From a virus, in IMG/VR virus record IMGVR_UViG_3300048839_000734, positions 1-23,577 of that record: a stretch of 23,577 bases of DNA; one strand, 5' to 3'. The notes under the pieces are model-generated. The model was not told the DNA's origin. It did no database searches and was given only the letters and a program-made list of their open reading frames with translations. The stretch's first letter is position 1. The number at the start of each line of letters is the position of its first letter. Below, piece by piece: positions 1,171-21,749 of the stretch. A program made the translations under genes and the position numbers.

Positions 1171-2739
1171 TTACTCCGGTCGCGTGGTGACTCTTTTCTT
1201 TCCCTGCTGCTCTGTGCGCTCCGCCGCGTCCGCCGATCGTCTCACATGCCTCGCGATGTCTTCGGCTAGCTTTCCAGTGAGGCCGCCTTCCTTGCCGATG
1301 GTGCGAGCCTCGGTTTCCAAGTACGATTGCTCCGTGCCTAGCTGCGTGTGACGCTTTTCAATGATTTCCAGCCCATACGTCGCCAGGAACCCGGCTTCGT
1401 TCTCCAGTAGTTGCTTCTTGCGTGCGGCGATCGCAGCATTGAACAGATTCCGAGTTGGCGACAGATGTTTCCCGCGGGACACATCCAGACTGCCCTGCGC
1501 CTTAGCCGCCTCAATGGCCGCGCCTAACTGTGCATCAGTTGACGGCAACCCCGCCGCTTCGCCGGCTAAATCTTCGGCCTGAGCGGACTGCACTTTTCCC
1601 AGCAATGCCGCAACGCCCTCTTCGCCGCCGAGGTTGTCTCGCAATGTGCGGAACGCCTGGACGGCCTCGGCACGGTCGCCAAGCACGCCGCCGATCCCTT
1701 GCTTTCGCTCCGGCATGGCGGCGATCGTCTCGACGATGCCTAGCAGCCCCTTGCCTTCGATGCCGCGTAGCTTCGCCTTTTCAACCTGGCGCAAGAATGC
1801 CGAGAGTTGCGTCCCTCCTTCGCTGATCGAACCTGACTGCTTGCCGAGAATAGTTGTCGCGGCCAACAGTTCTTCGTCGCCGATACCCAGAGCCTTAGCC
1901 GAGCCGCCAGATTGAGCGGCGGCGATCGGCAATTGCTCGAAAGACCCAGGAGCCGGGCCAGCGGCGCGGAGCGACTTGCTCATAAACTCCCGGAACGTGC
2001 CGACTTCTTTGGCGCCCAGTGAAGTCTTGAGGGCGCTATATGCTTCGGCGGCGCCGCCGACGTTCGTGAGCGTGCCGGCAGCACGAACCTGAGCAGCGAA
2101 CGCACGGTCCTTTTCGTCCAGGCCCGCGCCTGCCAATTGGAACAGGAGGTTGCCCGCCTCGTTCTCGTCCGCCGCAGCGCCCACGTCCACGAAGCCGCGG
2201 GCCTCGGCGATCAACTTGTCGTTAATGGCCTTGCGTTCCGCTTTCGTGTTCCCCTCGCCGGCCGCGAGCTGCGAGAGTGAGCCTAAGCCGGCCCGAGATT
2301 GCAAAGCCTTCTGCGCCGCCTGCTCCTTAACGGCGGCCTGTCGTTGTATTTCGCTGGTGACTTCCCTGATGGCTGCGGCCGCCGTGAAGTAGGCGCCGAC
2401 CATTGCCGTGACTTTAGACAAGGCGCTTGCCCCCCACGTTTTATCGCCCTCCTGTCCGGCCCGCTGTAATTCCGATCCGTACTTCTGCGCCGCCGCCCGT
2501 GCGTCGTCGATCTTGATCCGCCCAGACTGAACGTGCTGGGCAAGCTCCTGCATCTTGCGGTTGTACTTCTCCTGCGGATTAACTGACTCGGTAATCCGCT
2601 GCGCCTGATCGGCAAGCCGCTTGGTCGACTTGACGGCCCCTTCGGAGTTCTTCTCCGTGGCCTCAAGCGCCTTATTCAGATCGGCGACAGCCTTCACCGC
2701 GCCGCTGCCGCTTCCTTCGAGCGTGAACTTGGCCGACAT
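1171..2739 (-). CDS. Tail length tape measure protein
   Basis: This 522-residue protein is alanine-, lysine- and glutamate-rich and almost wholly helical. It has coiled-coil stretches near the N-terminus (about 20-110), a short hydrophobic segment at about 112-124 (MVGAYFTAAAAI), and helical repeats through to a charged C-terminus. This composition, and its place after the tail tube and a chaperone gene with a frameshift site, fit a tape measure. It is the longest protein of the tail module. At about 0.15 nm per residue the length would predict a short tail of roughly 80 nm. The ATG at 2739 has GAGG eight bases upstream. No lytic or peptidase domain is visible. The TMP assignment is strong by context, weaker by motif, as the family diverges fast. 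Confidence 0.8.
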   Translation of the reverse strand: MSAKFTLEGSGSGAVKAVADLNKALEATEKNSEGAVKSTKRLADQAQRITESVNPQEKYNRKMQELAQHVQSGRIKIDDARAAAQKYGSELQRAGQEGDKTWGASALSKVTAMVGAYFTAAAAIREVTSEIQRQAAVKEQAAQKALQSRAGLGSLSQLAAGEGNTKAERKAINDKLIAEARGFVDVGAAADENEAGNLLFQLAGAGLDEKDRAFAAQVRAAGTLTNVGGAAEAYSALKTSLGAKEVGTFREFMSKSLRAAGPAPGSFEQLPIAAAQSGGSAKALGIGDEELLAATTILGKQSGSISEGGTQLSAFLRQVEKAKLRGIEGKGLLGIVETIAAMPERKQGIGGVLGDRAEAVQAFRTLRDNLGGEEGVAALLGKVQSAQAEDLAGEAAGLPSTDAQLGAAIEAAKAQGSLDVSRGKHLSPTRNLFNAAIAARKKQLLENEAGFLATYGLEIIEKRHTQLGTEQSYLETEARTIGKEGGLTGKLAEDIARHVRRSADAAERTEQQGKKRVTTRPE

Positions 2740-2748
2740 GGTTAAGCC

Positions 2749-2868
2749 TCACAGGTCCAGGCTAAGCGCCATTAAGTCAGCCCACGAAGGTTTGTAAGTC
2801 GGCGCTAGGCCGCTTTTCCATCGGATGTATCGGAGCCAGCCGCGGCTTGTGGGGGTTCGTTTTTTTTT
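2749..2868 (-). promoter_or_regulatory. Programmed -1 ribosomal frameshift site and 36-codon extension
   Basis: A run of nine A occurs at 2868-2860 (minus strand), read in frame as GCA AAA AAA AAC. This contains the classical heptamer A AAA AAC at 2865-2859. A -1 slip leads into an open frame of 36 further codons, including RYIRWKSGLAPTYKPSW and ADLMALSLDL. It ends at TGA (2751-2749), nine bases before the tape-measure ATG. The unshifted frame ends at TAG 2807-2805 instead. Position, heptamer phase and the otherwise unexplained 65-base gap match the lambda G/GT arrangement. No clear stimulatory pseudoknot is evident by eye. Confidence 0.75.
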
Positions 2869-3590
2869 GCTAGGTCGTTCAGCGCGTCGAGCATCCACCG
2901 CCCGCGGCAGCACGCCATGACGATGTTGCGGAACGTGCTTTCGTTTTCCAGCGCGCCCAGCGCAACCAACTCCGGCATGTCAACGACGTAGTTAGCGCCG
3001 ATGATCGAAAACGCCGCCAAGCGAATCTCCTGCGCCGTCGGCTCGGCAATGCCCGACCCGTCGCCTCCGAAGCACAGACCCAACGCGACCGGATGCACCG
3101 CGTCCCACAACTCCGCGTTAATCCCGACTGGCTTACCGGCCACGAGATTCCCGTCATCGTCATAGTCCAGCGGCGCCGGCAACATGCAATCGCCGTCTTT
3201 TCGCTCGTCGTCGAACTCCGTCAACGTGGCAATCAGCCACTGTTGCCCGCCGAGGTTCATCGAGACTTCACCGGGCAACATGCTCGCCCGCGATAAGTCT
3301 TCCGGCGTCGGCTTCGCATCGTTCCAATACCCAAGCCACAACTCCGGTCGCCCCTCGACTCTTGGCAGCTTCCGCCACGTCTGTTGCTCCGGGTAGTAGC
3401 CGACCGTCTTCCCTTCGTGCCGCGACGCCGCGCAGAAGATCAGCCCCGCCTTGCCGCTGGGGCTGCCGGATGAAGTCGCGCGGGCCTCTACGCTCGACCC
3501 ATCAAACGCATAGCCCAGCCCCAGCTTGTTGACGCCGGCGCGGTTGATGGGGCGCGAGTCGCCCGAACGGAAGTAAAGGAATCCCGCCAA
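2805..3590 (-). CDS. Tail assembly chaperone candidate (G-like; frameshifted to a GT-like form)
   Basis: The unshifted product has 261 residues and no membrane segment. The N-terminal half (GFLYFRSGDSRPINRAG; about 1-110) looks beta-rich. The C-terminal half is helical (about 185-245), with EIRLAAFSIIGANYV and FRNIVMACCRGRWMLDALN, and then a disordered polar tail. The protein has little motif similarity that I can name. The chaperone call rests on its position directly before the tape measure and on the in-frame A AAA AAC slip site near its 3' end, which would yield a 280-residue variant. It appears to start with TTG at 3590, two bases after the upstream stop. It is larger than lambda gpG (140 residues), so extra domains are possible. 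Confidence 0.65.
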   Translation of the reverse strand: MAGFLYFRSGDSRPINRAGVNKLGLGYAFDGSSVEARATSSGSPSGKAGLIFCAASRHEGKTVGYYPEQQTWRKLPRVEGRPELWLGYWNDAKPTPEDLSRASMLPGEVSMNLGGQQWLIATLTEFDDERKDGDCMLPAPLDYDDDGNLVAGKPVGINAELWDAVHPVALGLCFGGDGSGIAEPTAQEIRLAAFSIIGANYVVDMPELVALGALENESTFRNIVMACCRGRWMLDALNDLAKKNEPPQAAAGSDTSDGKAA

Positions 3591-3592
3591 AA

Positions 3593-3982
3593 TTACACCG
3601 TGGGGTCAATCAGGAGATTGATAACTAGATTCGCCGTCTCGCCCGATGCGTTGGTGACGTAGAGCGCCGTAATGTCGTCGCCGATGCAGAACAGCGGGTC
3701 ATACTTCGCCGTGTACCAGACGTAGGGAATCCCGGCGACCAGCGTGAGCGTGTCGTCCGGGGTCGTGCCGTCGTTCGTCTCCAAGAGCAACGCTTGGTCG
3801 CTCGAAATGTAGACGCCCTTGACTTGGCTCACGTCGACCGAGAGGGCGACTAGCAAGTTGGTCGAGCTATCGGGAATCGCTTCCTCGATCGAAATAAGCT
3901 GACCGGCGGTCAGCGTGTTATTCAGCGTCGTCGTCTCGTTGCCAATCGTGACGCGCTCAGTGAACTGGAAAGAATGCGACAT
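3593..3982 (-). CDS. Small beta-rich tail-module protein, unknown
   Basis: The 129-residue protein starts MSHSFQFTERVTIGNETTTL. It is dominated by alternating hydrophobic and Thr/Asp residues that predict beta strands, such as LLVALSVDVSQVKGVYIS and TALYVTNASGETANLVINLL. There is no signal peptide, cysteine cluster or membrane helix. A single Ig- or jelly-roll-like domain would fit the length. It lies between the tail tube and the tail chaperone, so it may be a tail accessory or tube-decorating protein; this is inference. The ATG at 3982 is four bases after the preceding stop and has GGCTAAGG just upstream. Confidence 0.7.
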   Translation of the reverse strand: MSHSFQFTERVTIGNETTTLNNTLTAGQLISIEEAIPDSSTNLLVALSVDVSQVKGVYISSDQALLLETNDGTTPDDTLTLVAGIPYVWYTAKYDPLFCIGDDITALYVTNASGETANLVINLLIDPTV

Positions 3983-3986
3983 GGCC

Positions 3987-4238
3987 TTAGCCCTCGGTTA
4001 CGGGTGGTTCGTTGGTTTGCAGTTCACGCGCCCGCCGGTTGCAATTGCGGACAAGTATCAGCCGGCACTTTTCCTGAGCGCCTTCGATCAAAACGCCGTC
4101 TTCGTCGCACAGCGCCGCCAGTTCGCCGCGCAACTGATCGTCCATGCCGACCAGCGACGCCGGCGCACGGCCGCAGCAACTCAGCACACGCCGGCACTTC
4201 TCGTCCGGCGTTCGGTATGTCCTGGGAGCTAGGCTCAT
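3987..4238 (-). CDS. Small Cys-containing protein, unknown
   Basis: This 83-residue protein starts at an ATG that overlaps the stop of the tail-tube gene (ATGA), which supports it as real. It contains four cysteines in the first 60 residues (CRRVLSCCG and, later, LCDEDG and KCRLILVRNCNRR). The paired spacing could bind a metal, although no standard zinc-finger pattern is complete. It is basic at the N-terminus and has no signal peptide. The function is unknown. Its place in the tail operon suggests an assembly or accessory role only. Confidence 0.55.
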   Translation of the reverse strand: MSLAPRTYRTPDEKCRRVLSCCGRAPASLVGMDDQLRGELAALCDEDGVLIEGAQEKCRLILVRNCNRRARELQTNEPPVTEG

Positions 4239-5179
4239 GGGGGCGTCGTGTCGTAAGTGGCGGACAGATCGAACAGCACAGGGGCGTTGGTCCCGTCGTA
4301 GGCGGACACAAGCCGAATGGAATTGGTCGCCCGTTGGTTGCTGGATGCGCTAACAAGGTTCTCAGGAACAACCAGACCGGCCACGGTGATGGCGATATGG
4401 TCTGAATCGCCGAAGTCAGCGAACGAGCCGGAATTCTCGCGGGCGATGAGTTGGATGACGGTGTTCAAGTGCGTCGCGCCGCTGGCCCCCGCTGCCACGA
4501 GGGCGTTAGAGACTTTCGACAAGTCGCGCCCGCGGAACGTCACGACGGGCCGCACGGTCAGCACGCCGATGGCATCGGTCCAGATCGAACCGAGCGAAGG
4601 CGTTTTCTCCGTCTTGGTGACGTTGAACTCGATCGACACGTCTTCGATTTCCGGCCAGGTGCTGCCAGCAATCGCAGGCAGGCCCAGCGTGAACCGTTCG
4701 GCCACGATGGGCGTCGGCAGCGCTACGCCGTCCGTGCGGGCCACAGGGGCGTTACTGCCGTCCGTGATCGCGTCCAGCATCGCCGTGATCGTTGCGTCTT
4801 GCCCGCGGCTGGCGCTGAGCGTGCCGAGCGTCAGCAAGCCCGCTGATACGCGGTCGCGCATATGCGGCGTACCGCCCAAAGCCGACTGGCAATCGCCGAC
4901 GCGGCGGGTGATAACGTCCACCGCCGTCACGTCGAACGCCGAACCGACGCACTGGCCCGCCAGGCCGATGAACGACAGCACTTGAGCGATGTTCTTCGTG
5001 GTGATCGTCGCTACCGGGTCGACGCGGGTGAGCGACTGAAACTCTTCGTAGAGTGCGCCAGAATCGTTGCCCATCACTTCCACGTTGAGCGGGAAGTCGA
5101 CGTTCGTACCGCCGATATGCGTTGGCTGGCTGGCCCCGTCGTAAATCGAGAAGCAGCCTAGCGTGTATTGTTTGCCCAT
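4235..5179 (-). CDS. Major tail (tube) protein
   Basis: The 314-residue protein begins MGKQYTLGCFSIYDG. Long beta-rich stretches include VSIEFNVTKTEKTPSLGSIW and VLTVRPVVTFRGRDLSKV, with a final domain that contains DHIAITVAGLVVPENLVSAS. There are no membrane segments. Size, beta content and position after tail-completion genes and before the tape measure fit a tail tube subunit. A strong Shine-Dalgarno sequence (AGGAG, nine bases before the ATG) after a 12-base gap agrees with high expression. An extra C-terminal Ig-like domain would be usual for this class but is not proven here. The call is by context and general character. Confidence 0.7.
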   Translation of the reverse strand: MGKQYTLGCFSIYDGASQPTHIGGTNVDFPLNVEVMGNDSGALYEEFQSLTRVDPVATITTKNIAQVLSFIGLAGQCVGSAFDVTAVDVITRRVGDCQSALGGTPHMRDRVSAGLLTLGTLSASRGQDATITAMLDAITDGSNAPVARTDGVALPTPIVAERFTLGLPAIAGSTWPEIEDVSIEFNVTKTEKTPSLGSIWTDAIGVLTVRPVVTFRGRDLSKVSNALVAAGASGATHLNTVIQLIARENSGSFADFGDSDHIAITVAGLVVPENLVSASSNQRATNSIRLVSAYDGTNAPVLFDLSATYDTTPP

Positions 5180-7127: not shown

Positions 7128-8066
7128 TTACGCCGTGGTGAATGTGTGGAGCACTGCGTTCCACCAGGCCAAGTAGCCGAGGTTGTACCGGGCCTCGGTC
7201 ATGAACTTGACCTCCTTGTACTCCATGTCGTCGAAGCCCTTCGAGCCACGCATGAGCGGTTCGCGTGCCTGGAAGATGAAGGGCTTCACCGGCGTGTCCG
7301 TGCGGTAAAGCTGAAACACGTTCCCAGTGATGTGCGGCGAGGCCACGACTGTCGCGTCGACGACGACGACGTTCGTGTCGCCCCCGCTGACGAGGATGCC
7401 GTTTGTGGTCGCCTCGATCGCCACCTTGCGGAAGTGCAGCGGCACGAGCAACACAAGCTTCATGCCGTTGGCGGTTCCAATGACCGCGTCGTCGTGCAGG
7501 AACTCGCCGAAGTCGTCCTTGAACGCGAGCATGGCATTCAAGGCGCCGTTGAGGGCGAGCTTGAATTCGGCGACCGTCGGAGTCGCCGCCGCGACGATGC
7601 CGGACGTAAGATCGTTGTCCTGCGCTCCCGACTCGCCCCAGGCGTGATCGGTGTCGAAGAACGCCTGGCCGTCGAGACACAGGTCCGTCGTCGCCCCAGG
7701 GATCAACGTCCCCAGGAGCAACTTGTCGGGGTGCCGAGCCGCCCGTACGCCGAGATTCTGGAACGCCGGGCCGTAAATGGCCATGCGATCGTCGCGGATG
7801 CGGGTCTTCTCGACGCTGATGCCCGATTCCCAATGCTTGTTTTCGAGCGTGAACTTGGCGGCACGCAAGGTGTCGAACCGGCGAGCGCCGATCCACTCAC
7901 GCACCTGCGGCACGGCGCCCAGCAGGCCGTATTCCTCGTCGTAGCCGTCGCTGGGGATGACGGTGCAGAGCTCCGGGTAAAACGGCGTGGTTGCCCGCAC
8001 GGCGTTGTCGAACTTAGCGGTAAGGCTGCGGAGTTTGGCAACAGCAGCCGCAGAGTCAAGAGACAT
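7128..8066 (-). CDS. Major capsid protein, Mu gpT-like
   Basis: The 312-residue protein shows features of the Mu-like major head subunit family (gpT). These include REWIGARRFDTLRAAKFTLE with NKHWESGISVEKTRIRDDRM (about 57-95), the segment ending IYGPAFQNLG, and LDGQAFFDTDHAWG (about 131-144). It should form the icosahedral shell with an HK97 fold. There is no long N-terminal scaffold-like delta domain, in agreement with a separate scaffold in the upstream protease gene. A clear Shine-Dalgarno sequence (AAGGAA) precedes the ATG at 8066 after an 86-base gap. A strong terminator follows. The family call is from the motifs; the lambda-type neighbours make a chimaera of head types. Confidence 0.88.
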   Translation of the reverse strand: MSLDSAAAVAKLRSLTAKFDNAVRATTPFYPELCTVIPSDGYDEEYGLLGAVPQVREWIGARRFDTLRAAKFTLENKHWESGISVEKTRIRDDRMAIYGPAFQNLGVRAARHPDKLLLGTLIPGATTDLCLDGQAFFDTDHAWGESGAQDNDLTSGIVAAATPTVAEFKLALNGALNAMLAFKDDFGEFLHDDAVIGTANGMKLVLLVPLHFRKVAIEATTNGILVSGGDTNVVVVDATVVASPHITGNVFQLYRTDTPVKPFIFQAREPLMRGSKGFDDMEYKEVKFMTEARYNLGYLAWWNAVLHTFTTA

Positions 8067-9178: not shown

Positions 9179-9910
9179 ATCGTCCCTTTCACTGTTGCCC
9201 TGTCCGCCGAACCGGCTGGCCAGGTAGGTATCAAGAAAGCCGAGTGAGCGCGACCGGATGACCTCCGGAGTTGCGTCGGCAAACAGTTGATTCAAAGCGT
9301 GCGTGAGTTGGCGAGGCGCCGTCTCGATCGACAGCGGAGAATCGCCGAAAAAGCCGCCGCGGGTGGCGGCAGGTTCGTCGACAACGTCGCCGGCGACTAG
9401 TCGCTGAATTCGCATCGGCTGGAAACCGTCGTCGCGTTCGTCCTTCTCCATCGCCGTCTCGTTGACGAACGGGAAGATCGACACGCCGAAGGCATCCGGC
9501 TCGTCTCTCGCCATGTCCATGACATACTGGCCGCGACCGCCAGACTCGCCGCGGAAGGCGATCGGCGACAAGTGCAGGTCCGCCAATACCGTGGCGCCGT
9601 CCGCCGAGAGGCGAAACTTCTTCCAGCGGCCAAGGAACGATCCGAGGCCGTCGCTGCTCATGTTCGGGTGCGTCCAGCGGGCCTTGAGCCCCTTGGCCGG
9701 CGCGTTCCCCAGTTTGACGACTTGCGAAAGCGTCGTGTCGTCGATGAACATCTTGCGGACGTCGCCCTCGTTGAGCGCGCCGCGCTGAATGATTGCTACG
9801 CCGTAGATCGTTCGGCGCTGCGTGTCGAGTCTGGCGTCGCCCGGCAAGCCGCGGAGCGGCCGCAGCGGGTAATCGAGTCCAACGGCGGGTGGTTTGGTGA
9901 TCGTCTTCAC
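8669..9910 (-). CDS. Prohead maturation protease fused to a scaffold domain
   Basis: The 413-residue protein has an N-terminal serine protease domain, about residues 1-200. It carries the His motif ARWTHPNMSSDGLGSF (H81), then the Ser motif DAFGVSIFPF (S144), and the typical VDEPA ending of this domain (177-181). The C-terminal part is acidic, helical and Ala/Lys-rich (about 245-413), as in scaffolds. So the gene resembles lambda C, with the scaffold Nu3 in its 3' end. It starts with GTG at 9910, inside a GTGA overlap with the portal stop. Protease action should process scaffold and perhaps portal during prohead assembly. The exact protease clan cannot be fixed by eye. Confidence 0.85.
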   Translation of the reverse strand: MKTITKPPAVGLDYPLRPLRGLPGDARLDTQRRTIYGVAIIQRGALNEGDVRKMFIDDTTLSQVVKLGNAPAKGLKARWTHPNMSSDGLGSFLGRWKKFRLSADGATVLADLHLSPIAFRGESGGRGQYVMDMARDEPDAFGVSIFPFVNETAMEKDERDDGFQPMRIQRLVAGDVVDEPAATRGGFFGDSPLSIETAPRQLTHALNQLFADATPEVIRSRSLGFLDTYLASRFGGQGNSERDDMSTASNPPAALTQEALDSTLKTFGETLSTKLLGLVDQKIAAIKPADKTDDAPLSVSEIQAAERKRCGELQALAKNTGLDEWEKLATGWVEKGLSLLEAKAAIGDLALAKNGLTKDSGQQSDDPEAKYKAEYQKNLASFTHMGLSLQEYITSRKIDDGAELLAPKSAEAA

Positions 9911-11577
9911 GCTGCCGCTCCAGTCTCTTGGCGTTTGCTGTTGGCGTCCGACGATTCCTGGTTGCCGTCGCCGCGCTGCGTCGGAGCGCCGCTAGACGGC
10001 TTGTCGCGGCCCATCTGCGGCATGGTCGTATTGATCCCGAGTTCTTCCATTTCCTCGCGGTTGCGCTGAATGCGGGCGTAAACCTTGTCGGCCGGCTGCC
10101 CGTTCTTGCGCTCAACGAAGTCAGAGTGCGGCTTGACGCCGGCTTCGATCATCGTGAGATCGTTGCGATCCTCTCGCGGCGGATCGATCGACATCGAGGC
10201 CGGCGGGATAATGCGGGCCGACCAGTAGAGCCACGGGGCCGATCGGTATGCGCTTTGGTCGATGTCAAGAATTGGAGCGACCCCAGTGACCGCCCGAGTA
10301 ATAAAGTTTCGGTAGATCGCCATGAGCGTCTTGGCGTGGCCCATCTGCAGCACGTCGACGGTAGCGTCTTCGATGTTGAACAGCACGCGACCGGTCGAGT
10401 AGCTGAGGTTCTTCCAGTCCCCCGTCAGCATCTCGTAGGCCGTCCCGCAGCCCGCGGCGAACTGCCGGGCCTCGTATTCCATGAACGGGACGAACGACGT
10501 CGGAGCGCCCTGCGGATTGCTGAACGACACCTCGTCGGCCGGGCCGAGGTACTGAATCATGCCGGGGACGATGTCGCGCTGCTTCTTGCCGTCTGCGTCC
10601 GTCACGACGCCGGCCGCTTCCATTTCGGCGAAGATCTCTGAATCACTGCGAACGAACGCCGCCATGCAAGCGCCGATGTTATTGCGTTCCAACTCCGCGG
10701 ATGCGTACTCTTCGGCGTTCTTGAGTCGCTTCGTGCCCACCTGCATCCGCGGGAAGCCGCGGTGCTGCCCTCGCTTAACGCGAGCGTAGTGGTGGAACAT
10801 CCGGAATTGGCCGTTCTTCAGCTTCTTGGGGTAATAGGTCCACGACTCTTTGATCTCAAGCGTGTCGACCGGATGGCTGTCGCGGACCCAATAGCCGATA
10901 GCGCGGCCGTCTTTGAGTTGCACGCCCATTCGGACGTTCACGTCGCCCTCTTTTCCGGGCGGGGTACTCACGCGATCGGGCTCAATCACTTCGACTTTGA
11001 GCGTCGTCGGCGCGAAGGGATCGTATTCGTCGCCGATCAGCACAAACCACTCGCCGCGAGATTCCCAGTCTCGCTGCATTTCGTGCTGGATTTCCCACAG
11101 TGCCTGGCCGTCGCGACCAATGCACTCGGCGGTTCGTTCCCAATTCAAGCGAAGCGTCTTGTTCCACTGCTTGGCCTGCTGGGGGGTGATCGTGCCGTCG
11201 TCGTCGGCTCCAATTTCCGGGTCGATCGCCATGCCGCAGCCAGCGACGCGAATCACCCGGCCTTCCTGGTGAGCGACGGCCATTTCGTAGTTCTTGAGAG
11301 CCGAGTCGGCCCGCTTAATCATCGTCGGCCGGTCAGCTTCCAAGGCGGAGTCGGCTGATAGTTGGCTGGTCAGCCAGCTATGGCCGTCGCGTGACTGCTC
11401 AGCCGACTCAAATCCACCGCCCGAAAGAGCATCGCGGCGGCGACTGGCGGCCCGTTCGATGTCCTCTTTCATGCTCTCGGCGTACTCACGTCGCAGCCGA
11501 GCTGCAGCACGGCGGTTGCCGCGCTCCGGGCTCACCGCGTCGATAACGCTGTCGCAAGATTTTGAGAACCAGCCCAT
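9907..11577 (-). CDS. Portal protein, lambda type
   Basis: The 556-residue protein has a charged N-terminal helical region, followed by DSALKNYEMAVAHQEG and a stretch with VIRVAGCGMAIDPEI. Later comes the wing/stem core with GYWVRDSHPVDT and QLKDGR, and the lambda-portal signature LTGDWKNLSYSTGRVLFN. It forms the dodecameric ring at one vertex, through which TerL pumps DNA. The C-terminus is polar and disordered (GDGNQESSDANSK). The ATG at 11577 overlaps the TAA of the gpW-like gene. The order gpW-portal-protease is exactly that of lambda (W-B-C). Confidence 0.9.
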   Translation of the reverse strand: MGWFSKSCDSVIDAVSPERGNRRAAARLRREYAESMKEDIERAASRRRDALSGGGFESAEQSRDGHSWLTSQLSADSALEADRPTMIKRADSALKNYEMAVAHQEGRVIRVAGCGMAIDPEIGADDDGTITPQQAKQWNKTLRLNWERTAECIGRDGQALWEIQHEMQRDWESRGEWFVLIGDEYDPFAPTTLKVEVIEPDRVSTPPGKEGDVNVRMGVQLKDGRAIGYWVRDSHPVDTLEIKESWTYYPKKLKNGQFRMFHHYARVKRGQHRGFPRMQVGTKRLKNAEEYASAELERNNIGACMAAFVRSDSEIFAEMEAAGVVTDADGKKQRDIVPGMIQYLGPADEVSFSNPQGAPTSFVPFMEYEARQFAAGCGTAYEMLTGDWKNLSYSTGRVLFNIEDATVDVLQMGHAKTLMAIYRNFITRAVTGVAPILDIDQSAYRSAPWLYWSARIIPPASMSIDPPREDRNDLTMIEAGVKPHSDFVERKNGQPADKVYARIQRNREEMEELGINTTMPQMGRDKPSSGAPTQRGDGNQESSDANSKRQETGAAA

Positions 11578-11804
11578 TACGTTCGCGCGTGCCGAGAAAG
11601 GACCGTGGTAGTTACGACTGATTGCTTTCGGATACGGCGTTCCAAGTCATCCCGCAGCTTCAGCAGCTCACTAAGATTCGCCCGCGTGACCGTCTTGCCG
11701 CGAAACGTGCTGCTGCTGAACACCGTCAACTCAGCAATCGCCTGCTTGCACAGCGCCAATAGCTCGGCGTCCGTGTAGTCGACGGCGGTCAGCTTCGTGG
11801 CCAT
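11577..11804 (-). CDS. gpW-like head-tail joining protein
   Basis: The protein has only 75 residues: an N-terminal helix (YTDAELLALCKQAIAEL), a short beta hairpin with FRGKTVTRANLSE, and a second helix (LLKLRDDLERRIRK). This alpha-beta-beta-alpha order, and the site between terminase and portal, are the hallmarks of the lambda gpW family, which completes the head before tail joining. It starts at ATG 11804, directly after a small hairpin and without a good Shine-Dalgarno sequence. Confidence 0.75.
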   Translation of the reverse strand: MATKLTAVDYTDAELLALCKQAIAELTVFSSSTFRGKTVTRANLSELLKLRDDLERRIRKQSVVTTTVLSRHART

Positions 11805-11820
11805 GCCCTAACGATAGGGC
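11805..11820 (-). promoter_or_regulatory. RNA hairpin abutting the gpW-like start codon
   Basis: GCCCTA and TAGGGC form a perfect six-base stem with a four-base loop. Its 3' end on the minus strand is directly joined to the start ATG, with no spacer. It could restrict ribosome access or act as an operator. It has no poly-T tail, so it is not a terminator. Confidence 0.4.
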
Positions 11821-11846
11821 AGAAAAGAGAGTTGCCGCGGATGCTC

Positions 11847-11864
11847 CGTACCAGAACTGGTACG
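11847..11864. promoter_or_regulatory. 18-bp palindrome, possible operator
   Basis: CGTACCAG AA CTGGTACG is a perfect dyad with a two-base centre in the short gap (11805-11868) between the zinc-ribbon gene and the gpW-like gene. The two-base centre is too small for an RNA loop unless the stem opens. A dimeric-protein binding site is the better guess. No function is shown. Confidence 0.4.
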
Positions 11865-11868
11865 AGTA

Positions 11869-12090
11869 TTACGCTTGCCGTTCGCCGCGCTGCGGTGCGT
11901 ACCGCAGCGGCACAACCTGCTGATTCTGCTCTGGGCGGCAGCGGCAGGTGTTGCAGTGAAGGTACTTAATCCGCACGCCGGACGACTGTATTGCTCGGCT
12001 GCAATAAGCCACCAACCTGCCGACGCAGGTGCCTCGCGGGCAGCGGTCGCCGCTCTGGGGGCCGTGGCCGTTGGTGAGAGCGATGCTCAA
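11869..12090 (-). CDS. Small zinc-ribbon-like protein
   Basis: The protein has 73 residues, with C17-x4-C22 (RCPRGTC) and C46-x2-C49-x-C51 (YLHCNTCRC), plus C30. Two knuckles 24 residues apart, with YLHC before the second, are typical of phage zinc ribbons that bind nucleic acid or a protein partner. It probably starts at TTG 12090, whose last two bases are shared with the preceding TGA (TTGA). Its position in the terminase-gpW interval suggests either a packaging accessory or a late-gene regulator. The palindrome and hairpin just downstream make a regulator attractive, but this is inference. Confidence 0.6.
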   Translation of the reverse strand: MSIALTNGHGPQSGDRCPRGTCVGRLVAYCSRAIQSSGVRIKYLHCNTCRCRPEQNQQVVPLRYAPQRGERQA

Positions 12091-12326
12091 ATGCCAGCCC
12101 TCGCTTTCTTTTCGGCTGGCTCGGGGGGCTTAATCTCCGACCGATCATCGCTGTACTTCACTACCTCGTAGCGAATGGCTCGCTTGGCCACGATTCTCGC
12201 CACTCGCTCTGGCGAAACGATACGGAGCATCACGAATAACGCCCCGAAACGAATTGCCAGCCAGAACCACCACGCCCGCTTCGTTTGAATTTGAACGCCC
12301 AGGCCATCGCCACTCTTGATCGTCAT
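12087..12326 (-). CDS. Small membrane-associated protein, unknown
   Basis: The protein has 79 residues. One hydrophobic helix at about 18-37 (RAWWFWLAIRFGALFVMLRI) is followed by a charged basic tail with RIVAKRAIRYEVVKY and a Pro/Glu/Lys-rich end. The ATG at 12326 overlaps the TerL stop (ATGA), so it should be translated with the terminase. I know no family. The aromatic, tryptophan-rich helix suggests interfacial membrane binding. A role in lysis timing or packaging cannot be shown. Confidence 0.55.
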   Translation of the reverse strand: MTIKSGDGLGVQIQTKRAWWFWLAIRFGALFVMLRIVSPERVARIVAKRAIRYEVVKYSDDRSEIKPPEPAEKKARAGI

Positions 12327-14311
12327 GCCCTTCTCCTCCCGCGTCGAAACTCTGGCTTAAATCGCTCACGCCGCCGGCCGCCTTCAGGCTCCGCCGCCTG
12401 CACCGCCACGGGTCTGGGCGCCGCCTTCCCGCTCGGCTGCCGCTTCTCGGCCAGCTTCCAATTGCTCTTGAACCGCACGTCAGCAGCGCATCTGGCGTAC
12501 TTCTTTCCGTCGCGGTAATCGTTCGGCTCGCCTTCCCATCGCTTTACCCACAGGTGACGGTTCGGGTCCGTCTTGCTCGGCTCGGCCGACTCGGCGCCGT
12601 TGCAGAGCTGACGCAGGAAGTCGTCGTCGCCCTTTGATTCGCTGTTCAGCGTGAGCGAACCAGGCTCGCCCGGCTGCCGCTCGTCGAGCTGCTCCTGGAT
12701 GATCGGCTCGTAGTAGTGCGGATTGACGCGGATGCGACGTAGGCCGCGCCCGGCTCGCATCAACGCCTTCTTGGTTCGCACCGACTTGCCTTCATTCAGG
12801 CCAATGATCTTGACCTCGTAAGCTTCCCCGCCGCAGTCGGTGTTCGATCCCTTGCAAGGCATGACGTTGTACGGCGTGCCGCGGAACTTCTGGCAGAAAA
12901 CGTACACGTCCCGCGTGCGGAAGCCGCTGTCGATCAGCGTCAGCGCCGGGCAGAGCGGTTCGCCGCCGTCTTCGTGCTCGAATTGCCGGCAGATGACGAG
13001 CTGCTCGATCTCGTCCAGCGTCTCGCACGTTCCATGCGCAACCTCATGCTCCCGCTCGCCAGGGCCCACAGCATTGACCCAGTAAACGTAATGGTCGCCC
13101 TGGATGTCCACCGCGGCGAAGAGCCACGTCGACCAGACGGGCATGACGCCGGCCGGGGTCGACGTCGCCAGCCGATCGCCGACTTCTTCCGGTTCGTTCT
13201 TGCTCTTGTGCGGCTCCCATGTCTCGGCCAGCCAGCCGTTGACGAACATACGGAGGCTTTGCGGCTGTCCGATGGTCTGCACGAACCGCGCGGCAATGTC
13301 TCCCCAGCGTAGCTGCAGCGAGTAGAGCGAAGAAAGCTGCCCGCCCCAAATCGTCGAGTCTCGTTTCGGCTTGCCGATGACTCGCCCGCGAATATCAACG
13401 CGGCATCCCTCGGGCGCCCACTTGCCGGTCCTCATCATCCGCGGTCGTTGATCGTCGTGGATCTCGTGCCGGCAATGCTCACACACATAGCGGGCCGTCG
13501 CCCGGGCCACGGACGCCTCGACCGATCCATCGGCGGCACGGTCAAACAGGATCCCGCCGAGCGACTGGCTGTCCGTTCCGAGCTTGAGCACCTGGCGTTG
13601 CCGGCACTTCGGACAGCCCACCCAATAACGGCAGTTGTTTGAAGCCAGCACGCGCCGGTGGATGCGACTGCGGAGCTTGGTCGACGGCGAGCATTCGAAC
13701 AGCTTCTTATGGTCGGGATTCTCTTTGAACCGTTCCTCCCATTGGTCGACGGGATCGCCTTCTCCGGCATCGCCAGCCTGCCGCTCATTCATCGACCACT
13801 TGTCGATTTCGTTCGCCCAACCGTAGTACGCCTCGACGTCGGCCAGTTGCGTTTCAGATCCCGACCAGGCCACGCCCCACGGCGAGCTGCTCAGCCTGAT
13901 CTCCTCCAGGGCCCGGAACCGCGGCGCCGGCAACTGCCGCCGTGTCGCCTCGATCGATTCGAGCATCGGGTAAATCTTCCGCCGCACCGTCTTCTTGGCC
14001 AGCGTCTGCGTGCTTGTCGCGAACAGACCGGGCATCGGCTTAAGTACGGCCGTCGACGCCATGAGCTGCAGGGCGATCGTCGTCTTGCCGGTTCGCGTTC
14101 CCCATTCCAGACTGATCTCTCGCGTAGCCGGATCGTCCCACGCATCGCAGACTCCCTCGCACCACGGGATCCGGTCGCCGTCGAACGGTTCGCCCTTGTG
14201 CGTCCGACCATGCTCGTTGATCCACTCCCACGAGCGCACGTCGGGCCGAGGGTTAAAGGCCGCCATGACGGCCGTCGTGAGAATCGCCGGCTGGTACGCT
14301 TCGCAGATCAA
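12323..14311 (-). CDS. Terminase large subunit, lambda GpA-like
   Basis: The 662-residue packaging motor has an N-terminal ATPase with Walker A GTRTGKTT (71-78) and a Walker-B-like ANEIDKW (N167, E168, D170). A coupling motif FECSPST (205-211) follows. Two Cys pairs (CPKC 233-236 and CEHC 277-280) fit the zinc-binding insertion usual in GpA. Next come FVNGWLAETWE (about 356-366), and the nuclease start AAVDIQGDHYVYW (D402) with a later LTLIDSGFRTRDVYVFC block. It cuts DNA at the packaging site and drives translocation. It begins with TTG at 14311, inside a TTGA overlap with the TerS stop. The Asn before the Walker B acid is a variation in this family. Confidence 0.93.
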   Translation of the reverse strand: MICEAYQPAILTTAVMAAFNPRPDVRSWEWINEHGRTHKGEPFDGDRIPWCEGVCDAWDDPATREISLEWGTRTGKTTIALQLMASTAVLKPMPGLFATSTQTLAKKTVRRKIYPMLESIEATRRQLPAPRFRALEEIRLSSSPWGVAWSGSETQLADVEAYYGWANEIDKWSMNERQAGDAGEGDPVDQWEERFKENPDHKKLFECSPSTKLRSRIHRRVLASNNCRYWVGCPKCRQRQVLKLGTDSQSLGGILFDRAADGSVEASVARATARYVCEHCRHEIHDDQRPRMMRTGKWAPEGCRVDIRGRVIGKPKRDSTIWGGQLSSLYSLQLRWGDIAARFVQTIGQPQSLRMFVNGWLAETWEPHKSKNEPEEVGDRLATSTPAGVMPVWSTWLFAAVDIQGDHYVYWVNAVGPGEREHEVAHGTCETLDEIEQLVICRQFEHEDGGEPLCPALTLIDSGFRTRDVYVFCQKFRGTPYNVMPCKGSNTDCGGEAYEVKIIGLNEGKSVRTKKALMRAGRGLRRIRVNPHYYEPIIQEQLDERQPGEPGSLTLNSESKGDDDFLRQLCNGAESAEPSKTDPNRHLWVKRWEGEPNDYRDGKKYARCAADVRFKSNWKLAEKRQPSGKAAPRPVAVQAAEPEGGRRRERFKPEFRRGRRRA

Positions 14312-20255: not shown

Positions 20256-20464
20256 TAGTTTCTGCCGATATGTAATTGGCGGACCCAGTGATTCAGCGCG
20301 AGTTTGGCGATCGGGCAAACGTCGTCGTCGTCGCACTCGTCGATCATGTCCTTGAGCATGGAGCGGAGTGCTTTGTGTGCGTGTGGTCCCTCAACTGACT
20401 CGATCATGTTCTTGAGCCATTGCAGTTGCGTGGGCAATTGCTCGCCCGGCTTGCTTTTGCTCAT
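20255..20464 (-). CDS. Small helical protein, unknown
   Basis: The protein has 69 residues, begins MSKSKPGEQLPTQLQWL and is helical and acidic in the middle (KDMIDECDDDDVCPIAKLA). Its two cysteines are close (ECDDDDVC). The ATG at 20464 lies in an ATGA overlap with the thioredoxin stop, which supports it as coding. Function unknown; an adaptor or regulator of the neighbouring genes would fit the size only. Confidence 0.6.
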   Translation of the reverse strand: MSKSKPGEQLPTQLQWLKNMIESVEGPHAHKALRSMLKDMIDECDDDDVCPIAKLALNHWVRQLHIGRN

Positions 20465-20976
20465 TGGGCCTTACTCCACCACTGGTCGAGGTGCTTGACG
20501 TAGCCCGCCGCGTCCATCGGGCAGGGTTGCGACGGCGCCGCCATCTGGAAACGCGACCCACGCACGAACACGTCGCGCGGGACCGTCGTGATGCCCATCG
20601 CCTGATGCACCGGCACGGCGCCAGTGCGGAACATCATCGTGTCCTTGGCGTCCATGTGAACGCAGGCCCAGCGCTGCGAGGCGGCAATCAGTCGCGGATC
20701 GCGGAACGGGCCGGACTCCAACGCTCGGCACGGCGCGCAGAACTCGCCGGAAACGTGCAGCCAGATCGGCTTGCCCGAATGGCGGGCGACGTCGAGACTG
20801 ACCCACTTAATAGCGGCCGGCGCCGGCGAGCGGAGCTTTTCGTTGGCGTCACCGATATGGTTCGCCTGCCGCGGCGGAAAATGGTACACGCCGCCGGCAA
20901 TCAACGGCGCACAGGCCCACGCATCCGCCAGCGGCGGTACGGCGATGGCCAGCAGGAGGTAAAGGATGGTGTTCAT
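20461..20976 (-). CDS. Exported thioredoxin-like protein with CAPC motif
   Basis: This 171-residue protein starts at ATG 20976, chosen because it overlaps the peptidase TGA (ATGA) and begins a signal peptide (NTILYLLLAIAVPPLADAWA). A longer frame to 21072 lacks such support. The thioredoxin domain has KPIWLHVSGEFCAPCRALES with C80-A-P-C83, and a cis-proline at about residue 133 (TTVPRDVF). The C-terminus is short (DQWWSKAQ). It should exchange disulfides outside the cytoplasm, as DsbD-gamma or thioredoxin_7 types do. Its position right after a cysteine peptidase suggests a shared job, e.g. keeping a catalytic Cys reduced, but this is inference. Confidence 0.8.
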   Translation of the reverse strand: MNTILYLLLAIAVPPLADAWACAPLIAGGVYHFPPRQANHIGDANEKLRSPAPAAIKWVSLDVARHSGKPIWLHVSGEFCAPCRALESGPFRDPRLIAASQRWACVHMDAKDTMMFRTGAVPVHQAMGITTVPRDVFVRGSRFQMAAPSQPCPMDAAGYVKHLDQWWSKAQ

Positions 20977-21749
20977 TTGGTCGGCACCACGACGCTGCGG
21001 AGCGCGAACGCCCAATTGGCGGACTTGCGGATTTGGTTTTCGGAGTCGTAGCCGTAGCCTTGGTCGCCCCACATGCCCCAGCTATTTGCGTACTTCACGA
21101 CGCGGCGGCCGTCGCGTTGCAGCGGCCGGCAGTAACAGATCGAGTGGCCTTCGCGGCCGACGACGACGGGATGCTGATTGCAGAGCGCCGAGAGGATGCC
21201 TTGCACGCTCTCGACGACGTGGCCCTCGAAGCCGGCGAACTGCTTGGCCGTTTCTTCCCAGCCGCTTGGGTAGGGGGTCGAGAAGCCGGTGTTCGGCATG
21301 ACGCTGCCGCCGAAGCGGGCGCGGTTTTCCGGCGTATCGAGCGGCAGGATGCCGCGCTTGCGCATTTCGTCGATGCCGTCGCTGACCATCGCTCCCGACT
21401 GCGGAGAGCGACCAATGCGCTTGTAAAGCGAAATGGCCGACAAGTGGACGACGTTCTCCAGGCCGAACTGTAGCGCCTGAACAATCTCATGCGACTGGCT
21501 GGTGGCGTTCGCCACGCAGGATCCTTCTTGCCGCTGATCGTAAATCCGCGTCACAAGTTTGTCGGCGCCGCCGCCCTCGGCCTCCATCTGCTCCATCGCA
21601 CGGGCAATCTCCGCGTCGGTCAGCACGCCCACGGCTCGCTCATAAGACTCACCGCCGAACAGCCGCGCGAACGGTACGCCCAGATCGCCGCGGACGTACC
21701 GCGGGTCGCGGGTAAAGTCGACGTCGGTGAATTGGTCGATGATGTTCAT
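20973..21749 (-). CDS. Papain-like (C1) cysteine peptidase
   Basis: This 258-residue protein has all papain-fold active-site features. The oxyanion Gln (Q72) and nucleophile (C78) lie in YDQRQEGSCVANATSQ with the papain six-residue separation; the His is in VVGREGHSICYC (H202), and the Asn in KYANSWGMWG (N222). There is no propeptide-like region or signal peptide; the first 65 residues are an acidic helical leader that could act as one. No holin-dependent export signal is seen. It may be the lysis enzyme of a protein-rich cell wall, or a virion or host-directed protease. No muramidase or amidase is seen elsewhere in the window. The call as a C1-family fold is strong, the role is open. Confidence 0.87.
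   Translation of the reverse strand: MNIIDQFTDVDFTRDPRYVRGDLGVPFARLFGGESYERAVGVLTDAEIARAMEQMEAEGGGADKLVTRIYDQRQEGSCVANATSQSHEIVQALQFGLENVVHLSAISLYKRIGRSPQSGAMVSDGIDEMRKRGILPLDTPENRARFGGSVMPNTGFSTPYPSGWEETAKQFAGFEGHVVESVQGILSALCNQHPVVVGREGHSICYCRPLQRDGRRVVKYANSWGMWGDQGYGYDSENQIRKSANWAFALRSVVVPTK

Follow-up and report, generated by a model that had tools for sequence, protein, structure and literature searches.

Among the closest described counterparts of the locus considered here is the gpG/gpGT pair of phage lambda, whose two forms are made at a ratio of about 30:1; G binds the tape-measure protein, and the tail tube is bound by T (PMC5009743). Ribosomal shifting is what the phage tail chaperones in this review use. 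With regard to ribosomal slip sites in E. coli, A_AAA_AAC is among the inefficient motifs and A_AAA_AAR among the better ones (PMC4066793). A second way of obtaining two products from one gene is programmed transcriptional realignment, which is marked by homopolymers of at least eight bases (PMC3711429). Efficient slippage by bacterial RNA polymerase is found at runs of nine As or Ts (PMC5009743), and in one study the slippage of the E. coli polymerase was below detection on its poly(A) constructs and poor on shorter A runs (PMC6260861).

The window, as the DNA analyzed is called here, spans an IMG/VR record in full (23,577 bases, 63% GC), and every gene discussed lies on its minus strand. Its features are collected in Table 1. 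At the lambda-like place before the tape-measure gene, two chaperones would be made from one gene, most likely via slippage of RNA polymerase at a run of nine As (A9), and we give this reading somewhat better than an even chance.

Table 1. Features of the slip locus and its neighbors in the window, with the homologous genes of the sister clade listed by lineage.
Feature	Position	Strand	Remarks
Zero-frame gene, G-like product	2805-3590	-	261 aa, TTG start, TAG stop 2805-2807
A9 slip run	2860-2868	-	A8-A10 across the 12 slip lineages, with each of the three codon phases represented
In-phase heptamer A AAA AAC	2859-2865	-	common to the window and L003 only
In-phase A AAA AAA, overlapping A AAA AAC	2862-2868	-	common to all 12 lineages
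-1 frame extension, T-like	2749-2859	-	36 codons plus TGA, RTPTSRGWLRYIRWKSGLAPTYKPSWADLMALSLDL
Tape-measure gene	1171-2739	-	522 aa, directly downstream of the 261-codon gene, PF10145 match below the curated cut-off
Putative major tail-tube protein	4235-5179	-	314 aa, upstream of the chaperone-position gene, AlphaFold model match
Gene with no assigned function	3593-3982	-	129 aa, between the tail-tube and chaperone-position genes
Sister-clade gene, L002	4893-5558		
Sister-clade gene, L004	4893-5558		
Sister-clade gene, L006	5001-5675		
Sister-clade gene, L008	4815-5495		
Sister-clade gene, L009	4884-5549		

Gene order and identity of the protein before the tape measure

The 314-aa upstream protein belongs to no sequence family, but searches with its AlphaFold model (pLDDT 71, pTM 0.75) led to the tail-tube proteins of P74-26, SH-Ab15497, and T5, at a best E of 1.9e-6 (prob 1.00). 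By this siphophage fold of the T5/P74-26 type, shared at a sequence identity of about 10%, it is probably the tail-tube protein. Downstream, the 522-aa protein matches PF10145 (PhageMin_Tail) with an E of 5.7e-6, which lies below the curated cut-off, and the corresponding proteins of relatives match either the phrog_167 tape measure or PF10145. The order of tail tube, 261-codon gene, and tape measure is repeated in these relatives. A tail-tube fold upstream and a tape-measure-like gene downstream put the gene at the lambda V-G-(T)-H place, as the initial annotation had proposed with its comparison to lambda G/GT. By position and architecture, it is a G/GT-like tail-assembly-chaperone pair, and from these two features only we infer a chaperone function for its products.

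The 261-aa protein has no match in Pfam, PHROG, NCBIfam, or among PDB sequences, and its model (pLDDT 78, pTM 0.72) matched neither PDB folds nor BFVD at an E of 0.001 in structure searches that used models of moderate confidence from ten-sequence alignments. Likewise, no match was obtained by tblastn against named phage records, for which the gene of the window, two of its homologues, and the -1 peptide of L007 served as queries, and pattern scans of GTDB genomes found no relative. The known chaperone families of these libraries (Pfam, PHROGs, NCBIfam, PDB sequence, and folds) were rejected for the 261-aa protein, as none matched. Lambda-like chaperones are themselves very divergent, so that the missing family match limits the homology, but not the function, of the protein. 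A new chaperone class had been suggested earlier on grounds of size, 261 residues being more than gpG has; this is a weak argument, and a better one is that neither the sequence nor the fold has a match. The analysis supports a protein family at the chaperone position that is absent from every library searched and unrelated to that of lambda.

Some further genes were noted in passing. The 129-aa gene is also present in L003 (4609-4998) and highly conserved between both, was not seen in L002 or L004-L009, and has no family match. At 20973-21749 the window encodes a papain-like peptidase (phrog_16701 peptidase E 7e-4, PF00112 weak), the gene of which adjoins one for a thioredoxin-like protein at 20461-21072 (PF13899 weak). 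The regions 7128-8066 and 9907-14311 hold a Mu gpT-like major head protein with a lambda-type portal and a GpA-type terminase.

Conservation of the A run and the -1 peptide

Near its 3' end, the frame of the gene reads CTA GCA AAA AAA AAC GAA, with a C after the A9. After a slip into the -1 frame, 36 codons follow up to a TGA at 2749-2751, nine bases ahead of the tape-measure ATG at 2739, while 65 bases lie between the zero-frame TAG and the same ATG; the predicted slip product has 280 residues. The initial annotation holds on re-reading with regard to its coordinates, the A9, the in-phase A AAA AAC, the 36-codon frame, both spacings, and the estimate of 280 residues. The A9 is the sole homopolymer of at least eight bases in the 23.6 kb, and a first-order model expects only about 0.04 A-runs of nine or more on the minus strand. 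The open -1 frame was also confirmed, but as evidence it was rejected, since a -1 opening of at least 38 codons occurs at 49% of all codon positions in the genes of the window, which is the chance level in a genome of 63% GC. Whether the extension is real is decided by its conservation in relatives and not by frame openness.

Homologues of the 261-codon gene were found at the equivalent place in 16 other lineages of uncultured tailed phages from IMG/VR. Twelve distinct slip lineages including the window, which are related and hence not fully independent, have in common this gene, located between those for the tail tube and the tape measure, together with an A8-A10 run and the -1 peptide. The run is A9 in ten of them, A10 in L012, and A8 in L030/L031, and in each slip locus it is the sole homopolymer of at least eight bases. 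The closest relative, L003, the protein of which is 63-65% identical to that of the window, has kept the A9, the run phase, the zero-frame stop, and the -1 peptide, and even L005 and L007 (approximately 30% identical) and L012 (approximately 23%) retain A9 or A10 together with the peptide. When the -1 translations after the run were aligned, z values of 7.2 to 23.7 were reached in all ten pairs of the window, L003, L005, L007, and L012; the zero and +1 frames of these pairs aligned far more weakly, mostly near chance in the distant pairs.

The comparison of the window with L003 past the zero-frame stop gave 3, 4, and 13 substitutions at -1 codon positions 1, 2, and 3, respectively (P 0.004), and 14 of 19 -1 codons were unchanged in meaning, a count that 20,000 unconstrained random simulations, never exceeding 13, did not reach. 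The -1 codons are under purifying selection. Comparison with related phages had been recommended from the start, and the peptide proved to be kept in them, with the motif W..G..P.YRP(S/T).AD(L/I) present in all 12 lineages and its W, G, Y, P, and D invariant in the ten -1 peptides that were aligned. The conservation in relatives thus supports, as judged from sequence comparison, that the gene preceding the tape measure has a genuine -1 extension under selection.

Viral contigs were also searched with the -1 peptide alone, a query that carries no frame information. Each of the further contigs obtained in this way combined a homologue of the 261-codon gene with an A8-A10 run and carried the peptide in the -1 frame; eight lineages (L012, L020, L022, L023, L024/L025, L026, L030/L031, and L035) were first found by this search. 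In-frame fused copies of the peptide, which the peptide searches would have recovered, were seen in none of the 12 lineages. This bears on the idea of a phase-variable gene, in which DNA mutation of the A run switches the genome between a short and a fused form. Homopolymers of this length are mutable and such runs are possible phase-variation sites (PMC3711429), but all recovered lineages are out-of-frame, where roughly one third should be fused if the states were free, and we consider phase variation improbable.

Alternatively, the peptide could be the product of an independent small gene that begins at a start codon of its own, and the -1 frame of the window does have GTG codons upstream. 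However, the -1 frame of L003 opens only six bases before the run, and neither there nor in L007, L020, L023, or L026 does an ATG, GTG, or TTG precede the motif core in the -1 frame, so that in these five lineages the peptide is not a separate gene; this explanation is hardly credible. The A run as a sequencing error, which had been named as a possible refutation, is excluded in practice, as A8-A10 recurs in 12 lineages from independent metagenomes. More broadly, the true sequence could be a single fused ORF, or the peptide a relic of a decayed gene. Homopolymers are indeed error-prone, and a -1 frame is open by chance at half of random positions, yet the run has equal length in independent assemblies, the peptide is kept while the zero-frame tail and stop persist, and the selection on the -1 codons is purifying; error or decay is therefore very improbable. 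The sequence observation at the 2805-3590 gene is confirmed.

In all 12 lineages, the conserved extension ends at or before the tape-measure start. As side observations, the zero-frame product of L012, with its A10 run, extends beyond the -1 stop and reaches the start of the tape-measure gene (4962-5076), and the stretch from the -1 stop to the tape-measure gene holds short repeats in L020 (5100-5130, GAGTACT...), L022 (5070-5130, GACAGGAAGAT...), and L035 (GGGAGAAGG...).

The five remaining lineages form a sister clade (L002, L004, L006, L008, and L009) with the same gene order as the slip clade. Their homologue is shorter, with 221-226 aa, and abuts or overlaps the tape-measure gene. The five loci have no A run of at least eight bases and no -1 extension, and the T-like motif was not found elsewhere in them. 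In the protein tree, slip and non-slip lineages are split with full support, equivalent to one change. Relatives without the slip site but with the same gene order, which the initial annotation would have taken as a refutation, therefore do exist; as they lack the extension as well, they limit the distribution of the slip rather than argue against it.

Ribosome or RNA polymerase at the run

The initial annotation described a textbook -1 frameshift at A AAA AAC. A selected -1 extension, conserved in relatives, stands, while a ribosomal slip at this heptamer is weakened: only the window and L003 have it in phase, so that the other ten lineages do without it, and A AAA AAG is in phase only in L023. 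The slip heptamer of the X XXY YYZ form that is in phase in 12 of 12 lineages is A AAA AAA. Programmed -1 ribosomal frameshifting at A AAA AAA or A AAA AAC, as in lambda G/GT, with the extra As being incidental or raising efficiency, is thus the main alternative, to which we assign a substantial but clearly smaller probability, about one chance in three. In addition to the in-phase heptamer in every lineage, it has in its favor that tailed phages are known to rely on it at this place (PMC5009743) and that motifs of the form A_AAA_AAR do comparatively well in E. coli (PMC4066793). The A AAA AAC of the window, in turn, is of the kind that is inefficient in E. coli (PMC4066793), and it is not conserved.

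The behavior of the run itself is harder to reconcile with a ribosomal site. It starts at codon phase 0, 1, and 2 in three, four, and five lineages, respectively, and this phase has changed at least five times on the tree, while the length stays near nine. Elsewhere in these loci there are 105 A/T runs of five bases, 25 of six, 7 of seven, and none of eight or more, a drop of approximately 4-fold per added base. For a ribosomal slip seven As suffice, yet at least nine are present in 11 of 12 lineages with the phase free to vary; if only a 7-base heptamer were kept, this would have a probability of about 6e-13 with the lineages treated as independent.

Stimulators of ribosomal frameshifting are not conserved, which also counts against this alternative. 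For downstream hairpins, pseudoknot-free single-strand folds gave z values of -1.9 to 1.2 against shuffles, with none clearly stronger, and an upstream Shine-Dalgarno-like element was present in 3 of 12 lineages. Both were rejected as stimulators. Lambda-type sites may work without strong stimulators.

RNA-polymerase slippage is favored because the phase varies, the length stays near nine, and no stimulator is conserved. A run kept regardless of codon phase and a homopolymer of at least eight bases at the frame transition, both of them hallmarks of transcriptional realignment, are found in the slip lineages, and we infer from these sequence patterns that it is probably the polymerase rather than the ribosome that slips. 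Against this stand the heptamer A AAA AAA, which lies in phase inside every run and is a valid slip site for the ribosome, the use of ribosomal shifting by the phage tail chaperones in the review (PMC5009743), the A8 of L030/L031, and one study in which slippage of the E. coli polymerase on its poly(A) constructs fell below detection (PMC6260861). In the literature searched, outside which many subscription papers lie, there was no report of polymerase slippage for a phage tail chaperone.

With polymerase slippage, normal expression of the gene would yield the 261-residue G-like protein, and a minority of expression events would gain one A at the A9, most likely by programmed transcriptional realignment. 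The extra A would lead to the 280-residue protein, which has a conserved tail of 36 residues (W..G..P.YRP..ADL..L) in place of the last 17 residues after the run. If the division of labor is that of lambda, coating of the tape-measure protein would fall to the body that both forms have in common, and the rare T-like tail would bring tail-tube subunits to the tape-measure protein. The run presumably sits near the length threshold of polymerase slippage, which would give the low share of the long form that is needed.

Comparison with known two-product systems

With this locus, an unrelated protein family would join those from which phages make a chaperone in two forms at this place. We regard it as an even call that this is a previously unrecorded chaperone family whose G:GT ratio is set by the polymerase, slipping at a run of about nine As that is under selection, and not by ribosomal frameshifting. 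If the polymerase does slip, the same two-protein logic would have been reached at a different step of gene expression, the G:GT ratio would be encoded simply as run length, and annotation tools seeking only phased ribosomal heptamers would misread such loci.

Among systems with programmed transcriptional realignment, Thermus dnaX, Shigella spa13 and mxiE, and some insertion sequences have a conserved homopolymer of about nine, as is the case here, and two C-termini per gene, as is predicted here, but unlike in those systems, each run of the slip lineages also contains an in-phase ribosomal heptamer. With lambda gpG/gpGT, the locus shares the place between the major tail protein and the tape measure, and the longer form is predicted to share the body of the shorter, as in lambda. 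In contrast to the lambda pair, the body here has about 250-280 aa without a sequence or fold match in the libraries searched, the extension comprises only about 33-50 codons, and the slip site is kept as a run length and not as a phased heptamer.
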